From a virus: DNA of 38,656 bases. The notes under the pieces were generated by a model. That model ran no database searches, had not been told where the DNA came from, and saw nothing but the letters and a program-made list of their open reading frames with translations. Position 1 is the stretch's first letter. The number at the start of each line of letters is the position of its first letter. Positions 3,301 through 32,741 of the stretch are shown here, in pieces. Location of the stretch: the IMG/VR virus record IMGVR_UViG_3300023093_000067, positions 1-38,656 of that record. One strand, written 5' to 3'. The translations under genes were made by a program, and so were the position numbers.

Positions 3301-6300
3301 AAGCCGCTCGATAGAGTGCTGGCAATACCATTGAGCATGTTGCCGTAGTAGCCAGCGCCACCAGAGATCGCACCGCCGATACCGCCCGAGGCATAACCGG
3401 ACATGACCGACGAACCAACACCCGTGACGGCGTTCCAAGCCGACATCAGGTTCTGGCCCATGCTCAGCACGCCACTGAACAATCCGCCGCCGGATGAACC
3501 AGAGGAGGATCCGCCGGCGCTGCCGAGCAACTTGCTCCACACCGAAGACAAGCCCTGGCCATTGTCGGTACCGGTCAGCCAGTTGCTGATCGACGCCAGC
3601 AGAGGCTTGGTGGTGAGCATGTGAGCGATTTCGCCCAGCGTCTGCTTAAATCCGGTTTTGAGGTTGTCCCACAGATCATTGGCACCGCTGCCGATGTTGC
3701 CCCACGCGCTGGCAAATGCCTCGTCGATGCGATCAATCGCACCCTCGGTCATCTGGCCCCACAGCGTGGCCTTGCTGCGGTTTACCTCGTATTCGGTGCC
3801 AAGCTTCGCCAGCGCTTCCTGATACTGGGAAGCCTTCGCCGGGTACAGCTCCATGGCAGCATTAAGGGCATTCTGATCCTCGGTGTATTCCTTGAGCAGC
3901 TTCGCTTCAGGGTAAAGCCGGTCCATGATTCCGGTGGCATTACCCGCCCGCTGCGCGATTTTTAGGGCGTCCAACTGAGCCTTGTTTGCCGCCAGTAGCT
4001 GCTTGTATTCCTCGCTCCCAACGGCGATGTTTTTACCCGCGAGGGCAATGGTCATCGACTTTTCAAGGTTGTAAGCCGCGAGCGCGTCCGCGCCCTGAAG
4101 CGTGGCTTTGGCCTGAGCGATGATGTCAGCCGTTTCTTTACCCAGGTCATACGCAGCTTTGCTGACGTTCAGCTTGTCCTGAGCATCCTGCTGAGCAGTG
4201 AGCTTGGCGATTACCTCAGCACGAGCAGCGGAGCCGGTTTTCAGCAACGCCTCTTCGATCTTCTGCTGCAGGCCGAGCTCGCGGGATTTGTCTGTACCGG
4301 CCAGGTACGCAGCGGCCAAACCAGTCGCAGAAGCGATGGCTATATTGGTTTGGGTTTTAAGATCAGCAAGCGCCTTAGCCTGGTTCTTTAGCTCAGTGGC
4401 TGCCTCTTTAGCTGCGCTGGTTCCACTTTTAGTGGCTTTGGCTGCCGCGTCGTCCGCAGCCTTTTGCGCGTCCTTGGCCGCCGCAACTTTGAGGATCTCG
4501 GCGCCCATTTCTTTGGTGAGAAGCTTGTTCTCCGAAATGAATCGATTGGCAGCCTCTACGGCGGTTTTGTCTTGAGAGGTGGCAAGCTGCTTTTGCAACT
4601 GCTCCAGGTATTTCTGGCCAACGCCGGCGGCTTCCGCTTTCGCAGCAGCGTTTTCACGCTCGGCCTGGGTGAGCGCGTTGGTTTCGCCAGTGAGCTGAGA
4701 TACTGTGTCCTTTAGCTTCGCAAGCTCAGCATTAGAGGTTGCTGCCGCTCCGCCGCTTTTCTCCAGCGCGTCAGCAACCTCTGCGGTCACCCCTGGGACC
4801 TGACGCACCTGGTCGGCCACAGCCTTCCAGTCAACTACCATTCCAGTGGCTTGATCAGCCGAAGCCTTTTTTACAATATCTATGGCGGCCTGGAACTCAG
4901 CAGGCAGCGGCGCAATGCCCGCCATGAATCCAGAAGCGCCAGCCAGTCCAGCGTTGGTAAGACTGCTTTGAAATTCAAAGGAGATAGAGTTGGCAGCGGT
5001 CGATAGGTCCTCTTGGGCGTCAGAGATCGTACTGCGCAACTCTCGCAATGTAACCGATTGCGTGGCGCGATCGAGTTCGTTGAATTTCTTGGTGAGCTTG
5101 TCGATGGGGTCGGAAAGGTCGCCCAGCTTCTTTTCGAGATCACTCGTGTTATCGCGCAGGGTTAGAAATGCGGTGGCCGCGCCAATGGCAAGAAGGGCAA
5201 TACCGACCGGGCCGCCCAGTATCCCGAGCAGGGTCCGGCCAGTTCCGACAATTGCGCCCTGGGCTGCGCCGACCGCCGCCGTTGCCCGGGTTTCTGCCAA
5301 TCGAGCTTCTGCGAGCTGCAGTGACATCTGGGTTTGAACTGCAGTCCCTCGGGCAGCAATAGCTTCTTTCTCGGCCAGAAAGACCGTGGTTTGTGCTTTC
5401 TGCTGATCAGCCTGTGCAGCCAATAGCACGGAGGTAGCTTGAGCGCGACGAACCAGTGCTTCTTCAATGCTCGCTTTGATGGCAAGTGCAGTTGCCGCTG
5501 TCGACACCACGGCGCCGCGCGCGTACACAGCAAGAGCTCCGGCGGCAACTACGCCAGCCACCTCTGCGACTGCGCCAAAATTATCCGCAAGCCCGGAAAT
5601 TCCGGATGCTAGAAGCCCGGTGCCATCGGTAGATTCATTGAGCTGACCGACGTAAACAGAAAAAGCGTTGTTGAGAGCTACGACTGCATCTCGAACAGCA
5701 ACACCCATTTTGTCGGCGAGTAGGCCGTTGGCCTCCGAGCTCTTCTGCAGGCCCTTTGTCAATATGTCGAGACTGAGCTTCCCCTGTGCGCCGAGGCTCC
5801 TTATCTCCTCTGCTGATTTGTTGGTTGATTTCGACAGGGTATCAACAATCGTCGGCATCGCCGCGAGCATAGCCTGCCAAGAGTCAGCCTCTACCTTCCC
5901 GGTCTGCAACGACTTGGAATAAGCGTCAATGGCAGAGCTTGCCTTATCAGCCGATGCGGAGTTGGTCACCAGCAGATAGCTGAAACTATCCATGACATCC
6001 ATGGACTGGTTTGCGCTGAGGCCCATTGATCGCAAGCTGTCAGACGTACGGATATAAAGTTCTTGAGCTTCTTCAAGCGGGCGGTAGGTACGATTAGCGG
6101 TAGCTAACAGCCGATCCTGAACAGTTGTGTACTCGGCAAAGCTTTTTGTAGCCATGCCGATGCGGTCAGACATCTGCGAATAGGAATCAGCGGCCTTGAC
6201 GATGGTGCTGATAGAGGCTGCGCCGATTGCAGCAGCCATAGCGGTCTTGATAAGACCTGAAGCGCTTTGAGCGCTAGAGCCTGCACGATCAAATGCGGAA

Positions 6301-26504: not shown

Positions 26505-27257
26505 ATGAGCGTTAAGCATCCGCCACATCCCAGATCGACTCCCAAGGCGAAGGCCGGGGTTACGCGGGATAAAGTGACTGGCAGGTTGGTGGATACCCAT
26601 GAAAAAATCTTCATTCCAGTATCAAAAAATCTGCGATCTGGGGTGTGGATCGCGGCTACAGGCGATGCAGAGACCGAGCCGCCTCTTTCGGTAGCGGAGG
26701 CTCAGCGAAGGTTCGAAGAATCGATAGCGAAGCATCGGGAAGCCCAGGTCAAATGGATCGAGGCGTTTGGCCCTCCTGAGGGGTGGGTAAAGATCGAAGA
26801 CTTGCCGGTGGACACTCCAACAGAGCAAAGCCATACTCCAGATATGACCGACATTTCACGTGAAGAATTTAACGCCCGCATGGAGACCATCGAAGTAAAG
26901 ATGGACGCCAGGGTTAATGATGTCTCCAGCAAAATAGAAGGTTTTCTGTCTGCGCAGGTTGAGCGTGACAAAGCCCAGATTGAGCGCGATAAACGGTATG
27001 AACTGTTGGCGGAACGAGTAATAAAAGCCGCAGAGGGTGCCGAAAACGCCGCAAAAATGGCAGCTACTGTGAAGTCCAACTACTGGGCTGCAGTCGGCGT
27101 GCAGCTTTTTGCGGTTGCAGCGATTTTAGTAGGCGCCTACTTCGCCACGCAGGCTAATACGCTAAGCGCGATCGCCACTACTTTGTCAGCCTATCAGGCT
27201 GGCAAATTGGATTCTCCGAGACAACCAGCGCCGCCGGACCCAGCCGAGCGCAAATGA
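26505..27257 (+). CDS. coiled-coil membrane protein downstream of cI
   Basis: The product has 250 residues. The N-terminus is basic and Pro-rich (HPPHPRSTPKAKAG), then helical and charged. A coiled coil runs about 115-185 (EEFNARMETIEVKMDARVND, then AQVERDKAQIERDKRYELLA). One C-terminal membrane span (YWAAVGVQLFAVAAILVGAY, about 198-217) and a short tail follow. AAGGAAG lies ahead of the ATG. It follows cI in the same direction and ends at a terminator, so it is likely co-transcribed with the repressor in the lysogen. Such a position in lambda is used by the rex exclusion genes. Superinfection exclusion is an inference; no family is recognised. Confidence 0.8.
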   Translation: MSVKHPPHPRSTPKAKAGVTRDKVTGRLVDTHEKIFIPVSKNLRSGVWIAATGDAETEPPLSVAEAQRRFEESIAKHREAQVKWIEAFGPPEGWVKIEDLPVDTPTEQSHTPDMTDISREEFNARMETIEVKMDARVNDVSSKIEGFLSAQVERDKAQIERDKRYELLAERVIKAAEGAENAAKMAATVKSNYWAAVGVQLFAVAAILVGAYFATQANTLSAIATTLSAYQAGKLDSPRQPAPPDPAERK

Positions 27258-27286
27258 AAAAAAGCCCGCCAGTCGCGGGCTTTTTT
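27256..27286. terminator. bidirectional terminator after cI-linked operon
   Basis: Arms AAGCCCGC and GCGGGCTT (8 bp, 5-nt loop) have six T residues downstream on the plus strand and seven on the minus strand. It isolates the cI unit from the DUF1654 gene. Confidence 0.88.
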
Positions 27287-27298
27287 GTGCCTGCAACG

Positions 27299-28195: not shown

Positions 28196-28267
28196 AAATT
28201 TCGCTGGCTGGCCTTGGCGACAGGGCCAGACGGGAAGTTAACCAGGAGTACCAACAGGAGCAGCACG

Positions 28268-28651
28268 ATGGATTCGACAATCACTTACGGCGGGTGGAAA
28301 GGAAATTTAGGGCAAGGGCTGGCACCGAGAGAGCTTCAGTTCGTTCTCTCGGTTGCCCAGGGCATGACAGCAAAAGAGATCGCCCAGATGTTCGGCGTTG
28401 CGCCGGGCACCGTAGTTAAGCGTTTGTCGAACGCCATGTTCAAGCTTGGAGTGAATCGCCAGACGGCGATGGTCGCGGAATGTATGCGGCGGCGAATCAT
28501 ATCGCCGGTTTGCGTGGTACTGGCTGCCGTGATCGCCATACACGCAATGATCGATGACCAGCCAATGAGGCGGGAACGACGTTCCAGCGAGCGGCGCATG
28601 ACTGATACGCGCCCTGCTCGCCGCCCGGACACGCTGGAATTGTACGGCTGA
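28268..28651 (+). CDS. LuxR-type HTH protein with membrane segment
   Basis: The product has 127 residues from an ATG at 28268 with AGGAG 8 bases upstream. A GerE/LuxR HTH covers about residues 18-75 (LAPRELQFVLSVAQGMTAKE, IAQMFGVAPGTVVKRLSNAM). It is followed by one hydrophobic span (ISPVCVVLAAVIAIHAMI) and a basic Arg-rich tail. There is no receiver or ligand domain. Membrane-tethered LuxR HTHs are uncommon; similar short proteins are found in Pseudomonas phages. It probably regulates phage or host genes, target unknown. Confidence 0.8.
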   Translation: MDSTITYGGWKGNLGQGLAPRELQFVLSVAQGMTAKEIAQMFGVAPGTVVKRLSNAMFKLGVNRQTAMVAECMRRRIISPVCVVLAAVIAIHAMIDDQPMRRERRSSERRMTDTRPARRPDTLELYG

Positions 28652-28876: not shown

Positions 28877-29023
28877 ATGCGATTTACCTACGAATTGAAG
28901 GGTGGAATGTACATCTATAAAGGGCCGCGAGGCCATGGCGGCATTGCCTATTCGCTGGAACAGATCAATCAGCGACTCACCAAGGCATACGGTGATGGCC
29001 AGTACGAGCTGATTTCAGTCTGA
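28877..29023 (+). CDS. short hypothetical protein (48 aa)
   Basis: The product reads MRFTYELKGGMYIYKGPRGH, then AYSLEQINQRLTKAYGDGQY. It has a credible fold pattern (beta hairpin, then a helix) and a GGA about 10 bases before the ATG. It diverges from the gene at 28656-28865. Function is unknown. Confidence 0.55.
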   Translation: MRFTYELKGGMYIYKGPRGHGGIAYSLEQINQRLTKAYGDGQYELISV

Positions 29024-29073
29024 CAACCAGCGCCACGTCAGCCTGACGTTAACCGCCCGACGCCTCGAAAGAG

Positions 29074-29186
29074 GCTGCATCGGAATGTCGGCGGGACATG
29101 AAAAAAGCATCTCCAGAGCAATCAGATTGTGGCGAAGCCCGGACGTCGATTGCAAAAAATGGTGTGGACCGACATTCCAATGCAGC
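29074..29186. repeat. long inverted repeat H1
   Basis: Arms GCTGCATCGGAATGTCGG (29074-29091) and CCGACATTCCAATGCAGC (29169-29186) pair over 18 bp with a single C/A mismatch (G-U when read in one direction). They enclose 77 bases. The arms carry the GCATCGG/CCAATGC pair that H2 also has. Confidence 0.8.
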
Positions 29187-29238
29187 TTCGATAGGTGGCC
29201 ACTGCCTTCCCAGTGAGCGAGCGAAAGGAGATAAGGCC

Positions 29239-29247
29239 ATGAAGTAG
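29239..29247 (+). other. two-codon minigene (ATG AAG TAG)
   Basis: AAAGGAG lies 8 bases ahead of an ATG that is followed after one codon by TAG. The ribosome site is among the best in the window. It may be a regulatory minigene or the remnant of a broken gene. Confidence 0.4.
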
Positions 29248-29436
29248 TCAGCGATCCACCAGGGCGGCGCAGCAAGCCTGAAGGCTGCGCCCAACACCTG
29301 ACAGGCAGCGGAAAGCAGGGGCGACGATTTCACCGCGCATCGGCCGTAAGGTAGGCCCACCTCAAGAAGACGATTCGACGCGGATGAGTACAAGCCGTTA
29401 AGTCGGCCCCCTGCGTCACCCTCCCCCAACCAATAC

Positions 29437-29512
29437 GACCGCATCGGCAGATGCCAAGCCAGTCTCACGGCTGGGTTTGGTCACCCGTGCTTGGCATCTG
29501 GCCAATGCGGTC
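29437..29512 (+). repeat. long inverted repeat H2 ahead of gene at 29525
   Basis: Arms at 29437-29458 and 29490-29512 pair over about 22 bp with one G-T and one bulged C; each contains AGATGCCAAG or its complement. The loop itself can form CCAG/CTGG. The right arm ends three bases before the GGAG ribosome site of the next gene. Confidence 0.8.
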
Positions 29513-29524
29513 TTGGAGAATCAA

Positions 29525-29884
29525 ATGAATCAGACGATCAGCCAGAACCGCGCGATCCTCGAAGGCCTGCGTCAGCGTTGCACGCTCTCAACTGCTGAGT
29601 TTTACGACAAAGTTGACCGCATCAACCCGGCCCCACCGGCCCCGTTTATTGTGGTGCCCTGTGGTAACGGCGAATTCAGCATCGTGGACCGCGCCAGCGA
29701 CCGCACTAAAGCAATGTGCACCGGCATCGACAAGGCCGTGCGATTCGCCAAGCGTTGCGAGGAAGCACCCGTAGTTGAACAGCAAGCCAAGGCCCCGCCG
29801 CACTTCGGCACCTTGATGCTTTACTGGACTGCCGCCCTGTCCGTGATCATCGGCCTGTTCGCCTTCTTCGGTGCGCATCCATGA
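29525..29884 (+). CDS. hypothetical protein with C-terminal membrane anchor
   Basis: The product has 119 residues from an ATG at 29525 with GGAG 6 bases upstream. A longer frame to 29477 would start inside the hairpin. The N-terminal half is soluble (MNQTISQNRAILEGLRQRCT, then FIVVPCGNGEFSIVDRASDR). The last 25 residues are a span (LYWTAALSVIIGLFAFFG), giving a tail-anchored layout. The next gene starts in its stop (ATGA). Function is unknown. Confidence 0.75.
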   Translation: MNQTISQNRAILEGLRQRCTLSTAEFYDKVDRINPAPPAPFIVVPCGNGEFSIVDRASDRTKAMCTGIDKAVRFAKRCEEAPVVEQQAKAPPHFGTLMLYWTAALSVIIGLFAFFGAHP

Positions 29885-30570
29885 TCAGCACCGAGCTGAG
29901 CATGGTTCAGCACAACCGCAGCGCCTCTGAACGACTGGAGGCTGCCACACGCGAATTCTTGAACCGGGGCGGCAAGGTCGACCAGATCGGAACCACCTAC
30001 TACCGGCCACTGACCTACAACAACGAGGTTATCCCGCCCAGCGCCAAGCTGAGCCAGGCCGCCAATCTGAACCGTGCGGCAAAGGCCCTGCAATTTGAGC
30101 GCTCGATTGCCGAAAAGCTGGTCGCCTACATCGATATCGGCGTTGCCCAGGCGGCGAAAGACTTGGGGCTCAGCACCCGCCGACTGAACTTCATCGCGTC
30201 CAGCTACGGCGTGGTGTTCAACACGGTCAGCCATGAATCAGCGATCAAGCGTAAACGAGCGGCTGAAGCTGAGTTAGCGCCCCAGATCATCAAGATGTTC
30301 GCCGATGGGTGCAGCCAGCAGGACGCGATTAGAAAATTCGGCCTGACGAAGGACCGGCTCAGGCGAATGGCTCGGGATCACGGCATCAAGCTGCCCGGCC
30401 GTGTCGATGAGGCAGCCGACCGCAAGCTGATCGAAAGCATCACGGCTATCCGAGATCTTGGCTTGCCGCGTCGAACGTGCGCCCAGCGCCTCGGCATTGC
30501 CGGCAAGAAGCTCGACCGCATCGTCGAGATGTACGGCGTCAGCTACCCGCTACAGCGCATCCACAGATGA
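29881..30570 (+). CDS. triple helix-turn-helix protein
   Basis: The product has 229 residues. Three HTH-like units share the pattern A-x-x-x-GL-x-x-x-RL-x-x-IA-x-x-YGV: residues 88-113 (GVAQAAKDLGLSTRRLNFIA), 145-170 (QQDAIRKFGLTKDRLRRMAR) and 196-221 (PRRTCAQRLGIAGKKLDRIV). The charged linkers are 30-50 residues long. It is translation-coupled to the membrane-anchored gene. Probably a DNA-binding regulator reading a long site; the family is not recognised by me. Confidence 0.8.
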   Translation: MISTELSMVQHNRSASERLEAATREFLNRGGKVDQIGTTYYRPLTYNNEVIPPSAKLSQAANLNRAAKALQFERSIAEKLVAYIDIGVAQAAKDLGLSTRRLNFIASSYGVVFNTVSHESAIKRKRAAEAELAPQIIKMFADGCSQQDAIRKFGLTKDRLRRMARDHGIKLPGRVDEAADRKLIESITAIRDLGLPRRTCAQRLGIAGKKLDRIVEMYGVSYPLQRIHR

Positions 30571-31916: not shown

Positions 31917-32741
31917 TCATTGCCTCTTCGGAAGAATCCTCGTCTGGAAACCTCCAAAGTAGGTAAAGTGCAAGTCTCTACATAAACCCTCAAGATCTCC
32001 AAACATCGTCTTAGCGCCAACCCCTGCCTGGATTAGGTCCGTAACAACTGTAGCTATAAACTCTCTCTTAATAACTATTTTATGGGCGACTTCTTTCGGG
32101 AATAAGTGCTGAACGGTACACCCGACCGAGAAAACACCACTTTGAGTCCGGAGCCTGCTATTCAGATAGTTAGGCGTGTAGAAGCAATATCCAGATTGTT
32201 GTGCTTTATCCACAACATCAAACACATCTTCTGGCAAAGATTCACTATCAACCCAGATCGCTGGATCATCGCCCGTGACCACAAACACCACAGCATCTGC
32301 TACAGCTGATCCGAACTCGTTGCCCAGTGCCGGTATACATTCGGCGCCAGACCTGACTAAATCCGAACAATCGAACATATTCTTAAACTCATACTTGACG
32401 CCGTCTATCGCAAAAAAAAGCGCGGCCAATGGTGATAAAGACCAATCAAGAAGTCTAGTTGGCATGCCGTAGTGCTGTGCAAGAGCCAGCACATCCCATT
32501 TGTTCTGACTAGACAGGTTGTGATATCCGTGCCGCTCAGCATTAAAGATATCAAATGCTGTCTTTGCTCGTGAAATCCTACTGTTATCCTCAAAGTCTGG
32601 GGCTCTAGCAAGAGAGCTTTTCAGATCCCAATCGACGTTAGCCTGACCTCTATACACTGCCCTCTTATGACCGTTAACAACCTTCTTGATGGCCGCCATA
32701 AATTGCGCCAGATTACAAACATACTCAGTCATAGCTTCCAT
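31917..32741 (-). CDS. FRG-domain protein, accessory (moron) gene
   Basis: The product has 274 residues from an ATG at 32741, with AAGGGA about 8 bases upstream. The FRG domain is clear: AVYRGQANVDWDLKSSLARA (about residues 28-47) and LALAQHYGMPTRLLDWSLSP (about 86-105), followed by FFAIDG. It is on the strand opposite to the early operon and visibly richer in A+T than its neighbours, with an own terminator-like hairpin, so it was probably acquired separately. FRG proteins are common in mobile elements and defence-linked loci. The biochemical activity is not settled. Anti-phage or toxin function is an inference. Confidence 0.88.
   Translation of the reverse strand: MEAMTEYVCNLAQFMAAIKKVVNGHKRAVYRGQANVDWDLKSSLARAPDFEDNSRISRAKTAFDIFNAERHGYHNLSSQNKWDVLALAQHYGMPTRLLDWSLSPLAALFFAIDGVKYEFKNMFDCSDLVRSGAECIPALGNEFGSAVADAVVFVVTGDDPAIWVDSESLPEDVFDVVDKAQQSGYCFYTPNYLNSRLRTQSGVFSVGCTVQHLFPKEVAHKIVIKREFIATVVTDLIQAGVGAKTMFGDLEGLCRDLHFTYFGGFQTRILPKRQ

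Follow-up and report, generated by a model that had tools for sequence, protein, structure and literature searches.

What fills the gap between two neighboring genes of this Pseudomonas phage genome, and could it act as RNA? The window (the whole 38,656-nucleotide stretch analyzed, IMG/VR record IMGVR_UViG_3300023093_000067) has such a gap at positions 29024-29524, exactly the interval between the stop of a 48-amino-acid open reading frame (ORF) and an ATG at 29525. A sequence-only reading of the window had described the gap as gene-free, with two long hairpins of shared design (H1 and H2), and had suggested a functional RNA or a control leader outside any known family. Our analysis gives good support to the first part of this proposal: the region is very probably a conserved functional RNA. 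We see about an even chance that it is, more specifically, a cis-acting intercistronic control region of the early operon, which would set read-through, processing, or both.

Up to about 25 kb, the longest frames of the window are those of the minus strand. The plus strand, from 25760 on, carries a CI-type repressor gene (Peptidase_S24 plus HTH) and then small genes; past the gap, the order is a phrog_6742 gene, a gene whose product has a sub-threshold match to the SutA RNA polymerase-binding domain, and a DUF2303 gene. The features of the gap and its borders are as follows.

28214-28651, plus strand: gene for a phrog_3282 "sigma factor"-like HTH protein
28877-29023, plus strand: 48-amino-acid ORF directly upstream of the gap
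29020-29084, plus strand: core of module A, made of the upstream ORF stop codon, single-stranded CAACCAGCGCCA, hairpin I (29036-29048, CGTCAGCCTGACG), and hairpin II (29057-29083)
29071-29189, plus strand: H1, or cassette hairpin III, with arms at 29071-29091 and 29169-29189 and a structured 77-nucleotide loop
29194-29217, plus strand: module C hairpin (GGTGGCCACTGCCTTCCCAGTGAG), with 107 distinct copies in the fetched loci, a near-invariant stem, and variable loop positions
29226-29247, plus strand: minigene, Shine-Dalgarno AGGAG (29226-29230) and ATG AAG TAG (29239-29247)
29266-29291, plus strand: module D hairpin, GGCGCAG..AGCCTGAAGGCTGCGCC, 24 to 30 nucleotides past the minigene stop
29331-29417, plus strand: D2/B, predicted from sequence; GACGCGG serves both as the 3' strand of the D2 hairpin and as the 5' strand of module B
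29377-29417, plus strand: module B, GACGC..GCGTC, present in 61 of 171 regions
29417-29431, plus strand: C-rich unstructured stretch before H2 (CACCCTCCCCCAACC)
29437-29512, plus strand: H2, or module E, a long stem with a small variable hairpin and an invariant GGGTTTGGTCACCC hairpin, its end abutting the Shine-Dalgarno of the next gene
29525-29884, plus strand: next gene, phrog_6742 family, function not known (PHROGs E = 4.8e-22)

H1 and H2 lie where they had been placed, and both exceed chance. The arms of H1, first described as 18 bp around a 77-nucleotide loop, extend over 21 nucleotides with 90% complementarity and indeed have 77 nucleotides between them; the best 21-nucleotide inverted repeat matches at 19 of 21 positions, against 13 to 15 in 40 dinucleotide shuffles. 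H2, read as having arms of about 22 bp, pairs at about 22 positions altogether, including a perfect core of 12 bp. Both hairpins carry the expected motifs, GCATCGG at 29077 and 29441 and CCAATGC at 29177 and 29502. They also share the same imperfection, which is C·A on the plus strand and G·U, as it had been described, only on the minus strand. Folding of the whole region gave z scores of -2.6 (plus strand) and -3.9 (minus strand).

Related prophages, proposed as a place to look for covariation, contain conserved counterparts of the A core, H1, and H2, each with many compensatory changes. In the H1 frame, 44 sequences with distinct stems, many of them unrelated to one another, have 93.4% of cells paired and 185 two-sided changes; here as below, such cell counts are not independent events, since the instances are related by descent and recombination. 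The covariation score is 0.628 against 0.145 when shuffled, and at most 38% of cells pair when the arms are slid. Since this first placement of the 3' arm had used complementarity, the arm was then set solely by the CCNATGC motif and the test repeated. Of 11 positions, 9.3 pair, whereas shuffling the partners among the 86 distinct pairs leaves 5.9 (maximum, 6.3). Judged by sequence, the H1 stem is the most telling part of the region, each of the 44 predicted stems being matched by its own complementary arm.

Matched changes of this kind bear on the idea that the region works as DNA, its conserved linkers or cruciform-forming repeats promoting modular recombination between phages while folding is incidental. 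Module exchange among phages is clearly mosaic, and the excess of G·U pairs is weak, as this idea would have it. Yet linkers do not explain matched two-arm changes in 44 different stems, and neither the fixed orientation relative to the genes nor the retention of a Shine-Dalgarno-minigene with differing codons is accounted for, so we regard a DNA-level element as highly improbable. A short protein gene in the H1 loop is harder still to entertain, and we consider it extremely improbable. A 49-codon frame starting at ATGAAAAAAGC (MKKASPEQ...) is open in the window and ends at the minigene stop, but it is broken by indels among 32 relatives and is therefore not coding, and the loop contents of other cassettes are unrelated.

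H2 covaries as well, with 95.9% of cells paired and 33 two-sided changes at 11 pairs among 22 diverse copies (0 of 500 shuffles). The common design of the two hairpins turns out to be a general frame, GCATYGG-cassette-CCRATGC, that takes different cassettes; the frame that adjoins the A core of loci L224 and L235 contains the H2 cassette. Across relatives (at least about 180 distinct A instances), the region is a mosaic in which A is followed by this frame and then by B, C plus minigene, D, E, and terminators in various orders. The order in the window is A-C-minigene-D-B-E. Pyrimidine-rich stretches recur ahead of H2-type hairpins in relatives.

Long stems that keep their pairing and change their sequence could also serve RNA processing or stability. 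H1 and H2 would then be RNase III sites or end-protecting hairpins, the early mRNA would be cut into cistrons of different lifetimes, and pairing alone would matter, leaving the stem sequence free. The T7 R sites, RNase III processing sites of phage early mRNAs, are likewise long intercistronic hairpins, and the stems of 18 to 22 bp seen here, with their total sequence turnover and with one stem after a stop codon and the other just ahead of a Shine-Dalgarno, fit such a role. But the region adds conserved primary-sequence motifs and modules to its hairpins: the near-invariant CCAGCGCC and GCATCGG, hairpin I, the invariant GGGTTTGGTCACCC loop, and the minigene are left unexplained. We consider this explanation unlikely.

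The A core is 62 to 75 nucleotides long. In the window, it lies about 2.1 kb downstream of cI, directly behind a stop codon, and covariance model R1 matches it at 29023-29084 with 71.7 bits. Its two hairpins are backed by covariation: in 47 diverse cores, the 14 pairs of hairpins I and II have 95% of cells paired and 42 two-sided changes, with a covariation score of 0.207 against 0.083 when shuffled and 19 to 40% of cells paired when slid. In 118 of 156 instances, a stop codon (TGA, TAA, or TAG) stands 3 or 4 nucleotides before CCAGCGCC. The genes flanking A are diverse, with 32 BLAST clusters downstream and 38 upstream; the upstream genes were grouped by single linkage, which joined unrelated proteins via a common leader, so that their true diversity is at least as large. 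A single cluster, whose example matches phrog_6742, holds 65 of the 167 downstream genes. The recurrence of a stop codon just ahead of the A core behind so many unrelated genes argues for an element that would act in cis.

The left arm of H1 belongs to H1, as had been read, and also to a competing conserved hairpin, hairpin II. The ATCGG of GCATCGG is common to hairpins II and III, with possible pairing upstream (CCGAT, in hairpin II) or downstream (CCRATGC, in H1); where B directly follows, the downstream strand doubles as the 5' strand of B. Of 52 representatives, 50 retain the C of GCATCGG, whereas the position opposite it holds G (31), A (14), or C (4). A likely reason for this constancy is that hairpin II has a conserved G with which that C also pairs; this would explain the C·A imperfection in H1 and H2. 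Hairpins II and III may therefore represent alternative folds. An equilibrium switch between II and III, or between II plus B and III, is not favored: the form with H1 closed wins by about 4 to 13 kcal/mol (median, 9), so any switching would be kinetic, occurring during transcription or with the help of a ribosome or a protein.

No ordinary protein is encoded in the gap, and to that extent it is gene-free. It does contain the Shine-Dalgarno with ATG AAG TAG, the sole site within 29024-29524 that combines a Shine-Dalgarno with a minimal ORF. Among the parsable copies of module C, 103 of 105 have a stop no more than five codons past the ATG; by comparison, 80% of the Shine-Dalgarno-ATG sites in all fetched loci pooled open frames of at least 30 codons. 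The contents of the minigenes vary (MK*, MD*, M*, MKR*, MWK*, MGH*, MSSY*, and MN*), which indicates that brevity rather than the peptide is conserved. A few copies read MTIM*, where the second ATG is probably the start. Minigenes are found behind other 5' modules too.

What follows the minigene is also ordered. Of the 171 A regions, 65 have a minigene, and 28 of these contain D, against 2 of the 106 without one (Fisher p = 5e-12), and its spacing of 24 to 30 nucleotides from the minigene stop is fixed. An intrinsic terminator is present in 16 of 65 and 2 of 106, respectively (p = 4e-6), with a spacing of 73 to 91 nucleotides from the minigene stop in 15 of the 16; terminators are on the plus strand in 18 regions and on the minus strand in 4. 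Between the relatives' terminators and the next gene, we found no convincing sigma-70 promoter (best, 5 to 8 of 12 matches), so the downstream genes there appear to need read-through. In the window, what follows the minigene is D and not a recognizable terminator. When three terminator-bearing leaders were put through simple folding, no switch between terminator and antiterminator emerged: whether or not a ribosome was placed on the minigene, the terminator formed. In L004 (about 3320-3440), L021, L058, L069, and other terminator-bearing loci, an extra conserved hairpin, apparently covarying, lies between the terminator and the next gene: CGTCAGCACTC-(CCTGC GCCCAACGGCAACCA GCAGG)-GAGTGCTGACG.

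The minigene unit recalls leader-peptide attenuators, with which it shares a very short ORF with a Shine-Dalgarno and, in 16 relatives, an intrinsic terminator at a fixed distance. It differs in that it has no instructive codons and that folding revealed no competing antiterminator; the window has D in the terminator's place. A second parallel is offered by the bar minigenes of the temperate phage lambda, two-codon ORFs reading AUG AUA UAA (PMC8012679). The window minigene is likewise a two-codon ORF with an immediate stop and a strong Shine-Dalgarno, AGGAG. Its second codon is AAG rather than AUA (GAC or none in relatives), and the RNA around it is structured, with D or a terminator often following at a fixed distance. 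The toxicity of the bar minigenes arises when peptidyl-tRNA hydrolase is limiting.

How widely is this region distributed? By blastn against annotated phages, the 5' part of the gap lies in unannotated intergenic stretches of the P. aeruginosa phages phi1, phi2, MD8, zjk6, and vB_PaeS-D14E and of phage SC_8_H2H8, and other parts are found in the P. syringae phages Aurca01 and Medea1. IMG/VR was scanned for four exact motifs, the fourth of which gave at least 106 stretches, counts from such collection scans being lower bounds; a degenerate scan with one genome per species gave at least 65 stretches, all from Pseudomonas. Model R1 matches 66 of 249 Pseudomonas genomes (57 at E < 1e-8) and 2 of 273 other Gammaproteobacteria, the latter both weakly (5e-4 and 1e-3) and none strongly. 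A search of two complete phage records gave exactly one A core in each. In one of the genomes scanned, R1 matches four times with equal score on separate contigs; the contigs of Pseudomonas agarici LMG 2112, where four short contigs (L135, L148, L152, and L167; 9 to 11 kb) each carry an A core, fit this pattern. These may be either repeated prophage fragments or an effect of assembly.

The conserved neighbors of A are on its strand in every case: cI upstream (27 of 27), phrog_3282 (48 of 48), phrog_6742 (26 of 26), and DUF2303 (21 of 21). Counts of G·U against A·C favor the plus strand weakly (44:34 in the H1 stem, or 43:18 without the basal pair, and 13:11 and 11:10 elsewhere); the main grounds for choosing this strand are gene order and the minigene. 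This constancy of position matters for the alternative that one or more small RNAs, processed from or terminated in the region, act in trans on host or competing-phage RNAs. Hypervariable cassettes within a conserved frame could supply target specificity, and some relatives have terminators of their own after the minigene. But no promoter or terminator of its own was found in 29024-29524 of the window, the module is in every case flanked by genes of one operon and shares their strand, and the four equal-score matches in one genome, if they are separate prophages, oppose a role in incompatibility. A trans-acting RNA is, in our judgment, quite unlikely.

Control in cis of the early operon is suggested by the fixed same-strand position, the tie to the stop codon, the ribosome-binding site that follows, and the minigene-plus-terminator unit. 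Against it stand the presence of D instead of a terminator after the window's minigene, the failure of simple folding to show a switch, the equilibrium preference for closed H1 over hairpin II, and the weak G·U support. We infer that the region is transcribed and controls read-through. On this cis-acting reading, the early operon would run from cI towards the phrog_6742 and DUF2303 genes and carry a control RNA assembled from exchangeable structured modules. The A core would fold in the nascent RNA just behind the stop codon and serve as a read-through (antitermination-like) element, followed by the cassette hairpin H1, the Shine-Dalgarno and two-codon minigene with D, module B, and H2 at the next ribosome-binding site. 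The minigene unit would form an attenuator-like or terminator-bearing checkpoint, and the long stems may also insulate or process the RNA. Together, these parts would set how far transcription and translation extend into the downstream genes.

Among described systems, the HK022 putRNA and the lambda bar minigenes come closest, and we claim membership in neither. The putL and putR antiterminator RNAs of HK022, about 70 nucleotides long with two stem-loops, belong to the early operon of a lambdoid phage and act without factors via the zinc-binding domain of the RNA polymerase beta' subunit; putL is just downstream of PL, and putR is about 270 nucleotides from the start site (PMC9378689). The A core, likened to put by topology alone, has a similar size (62 to 75 nucleotides) and two hairpins and would act in cis on read-through. 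Whereas put is near the promoter, the A core has a stop codon immediately before it and exchangeable modules behind it, and its distance downstream from cI is about 2.1 kb.

As for known families, the sequence-only reading stands: Rfam 15 gave no gathering-score match in the window or in the corresponding stretches of 12 related loci, where just two tRNAs were found outside those stretches. Sub-threshold matches were to microRNA and snoRNA models only (E up to 5), and the window has no tRNA or tmRNA. Literature searches by topic and sequence words found no description of the region. We tentatively raise the possibility that Pseudomonas phages share a combinatorial RNA control locus in which a small set of structured modules, with start-stop minigenes and with helices that overlap and exclude one another, is shuffled between phages inside conserved frames, giving each phage its own early-operon read-through program; the A core would then be a new class of RNA acting on the elongating RNA polymerase or the terminating ribosome. 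If the control-region reading is right, the early operon of prophages in about a quarter of the sampled Pseudomonas genomes would have, at a fixed place, a structured RNA that has gone unrecorded. This would bear on the ways in which temperate phages get past terminators outside the lambda N system and on the role of start-stop minigenes, and it would show RNA stems replacing their whole sequence while the shape stays. Several new RNA family models would result, filling stretches that are unannotated in GenBank phage records.

Four further observations concern the surroundings of the gap. At 27222-27290, an exact CAACCAGCGCC (27222-27232) is followed shortly by a strong intrinsic terminator (AAAAAAAGCCCGCCAGTCGCGGGCTTTTTT); R1 matches weakly there (11 bits, E = 0.17). 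The early protein encoded by the second gene past the RNA region (29881-30570) matches the SutA RNA polymerase-binding domain below threshold (E = 9.4e-6, 25.3 bits against a cut-off of 29.3), making it a candidate RNA polymerase-binding phage factor. Within the early region, on the opposite (minus) strand, 31917-32741 encodes an FRG-domain protein (Pfam E = 3e-24), possibly an accessory (moron) or defense gene. Finally, upstream of the phrog_3282 gene, 28199-28239 holds module F, another portable RNA motif, TTTCRCT-(stem)-CTTGGCGACAG-(stem)-RCGGGAARTC, with no Rfam match in the window. Its 6-bp stem is kept in 102 of 108 distinct copies, and the pair types vary (CTGGCC/GGCCAG, CTGCAC/GTGCAG, and GATGAC/GTCATC).
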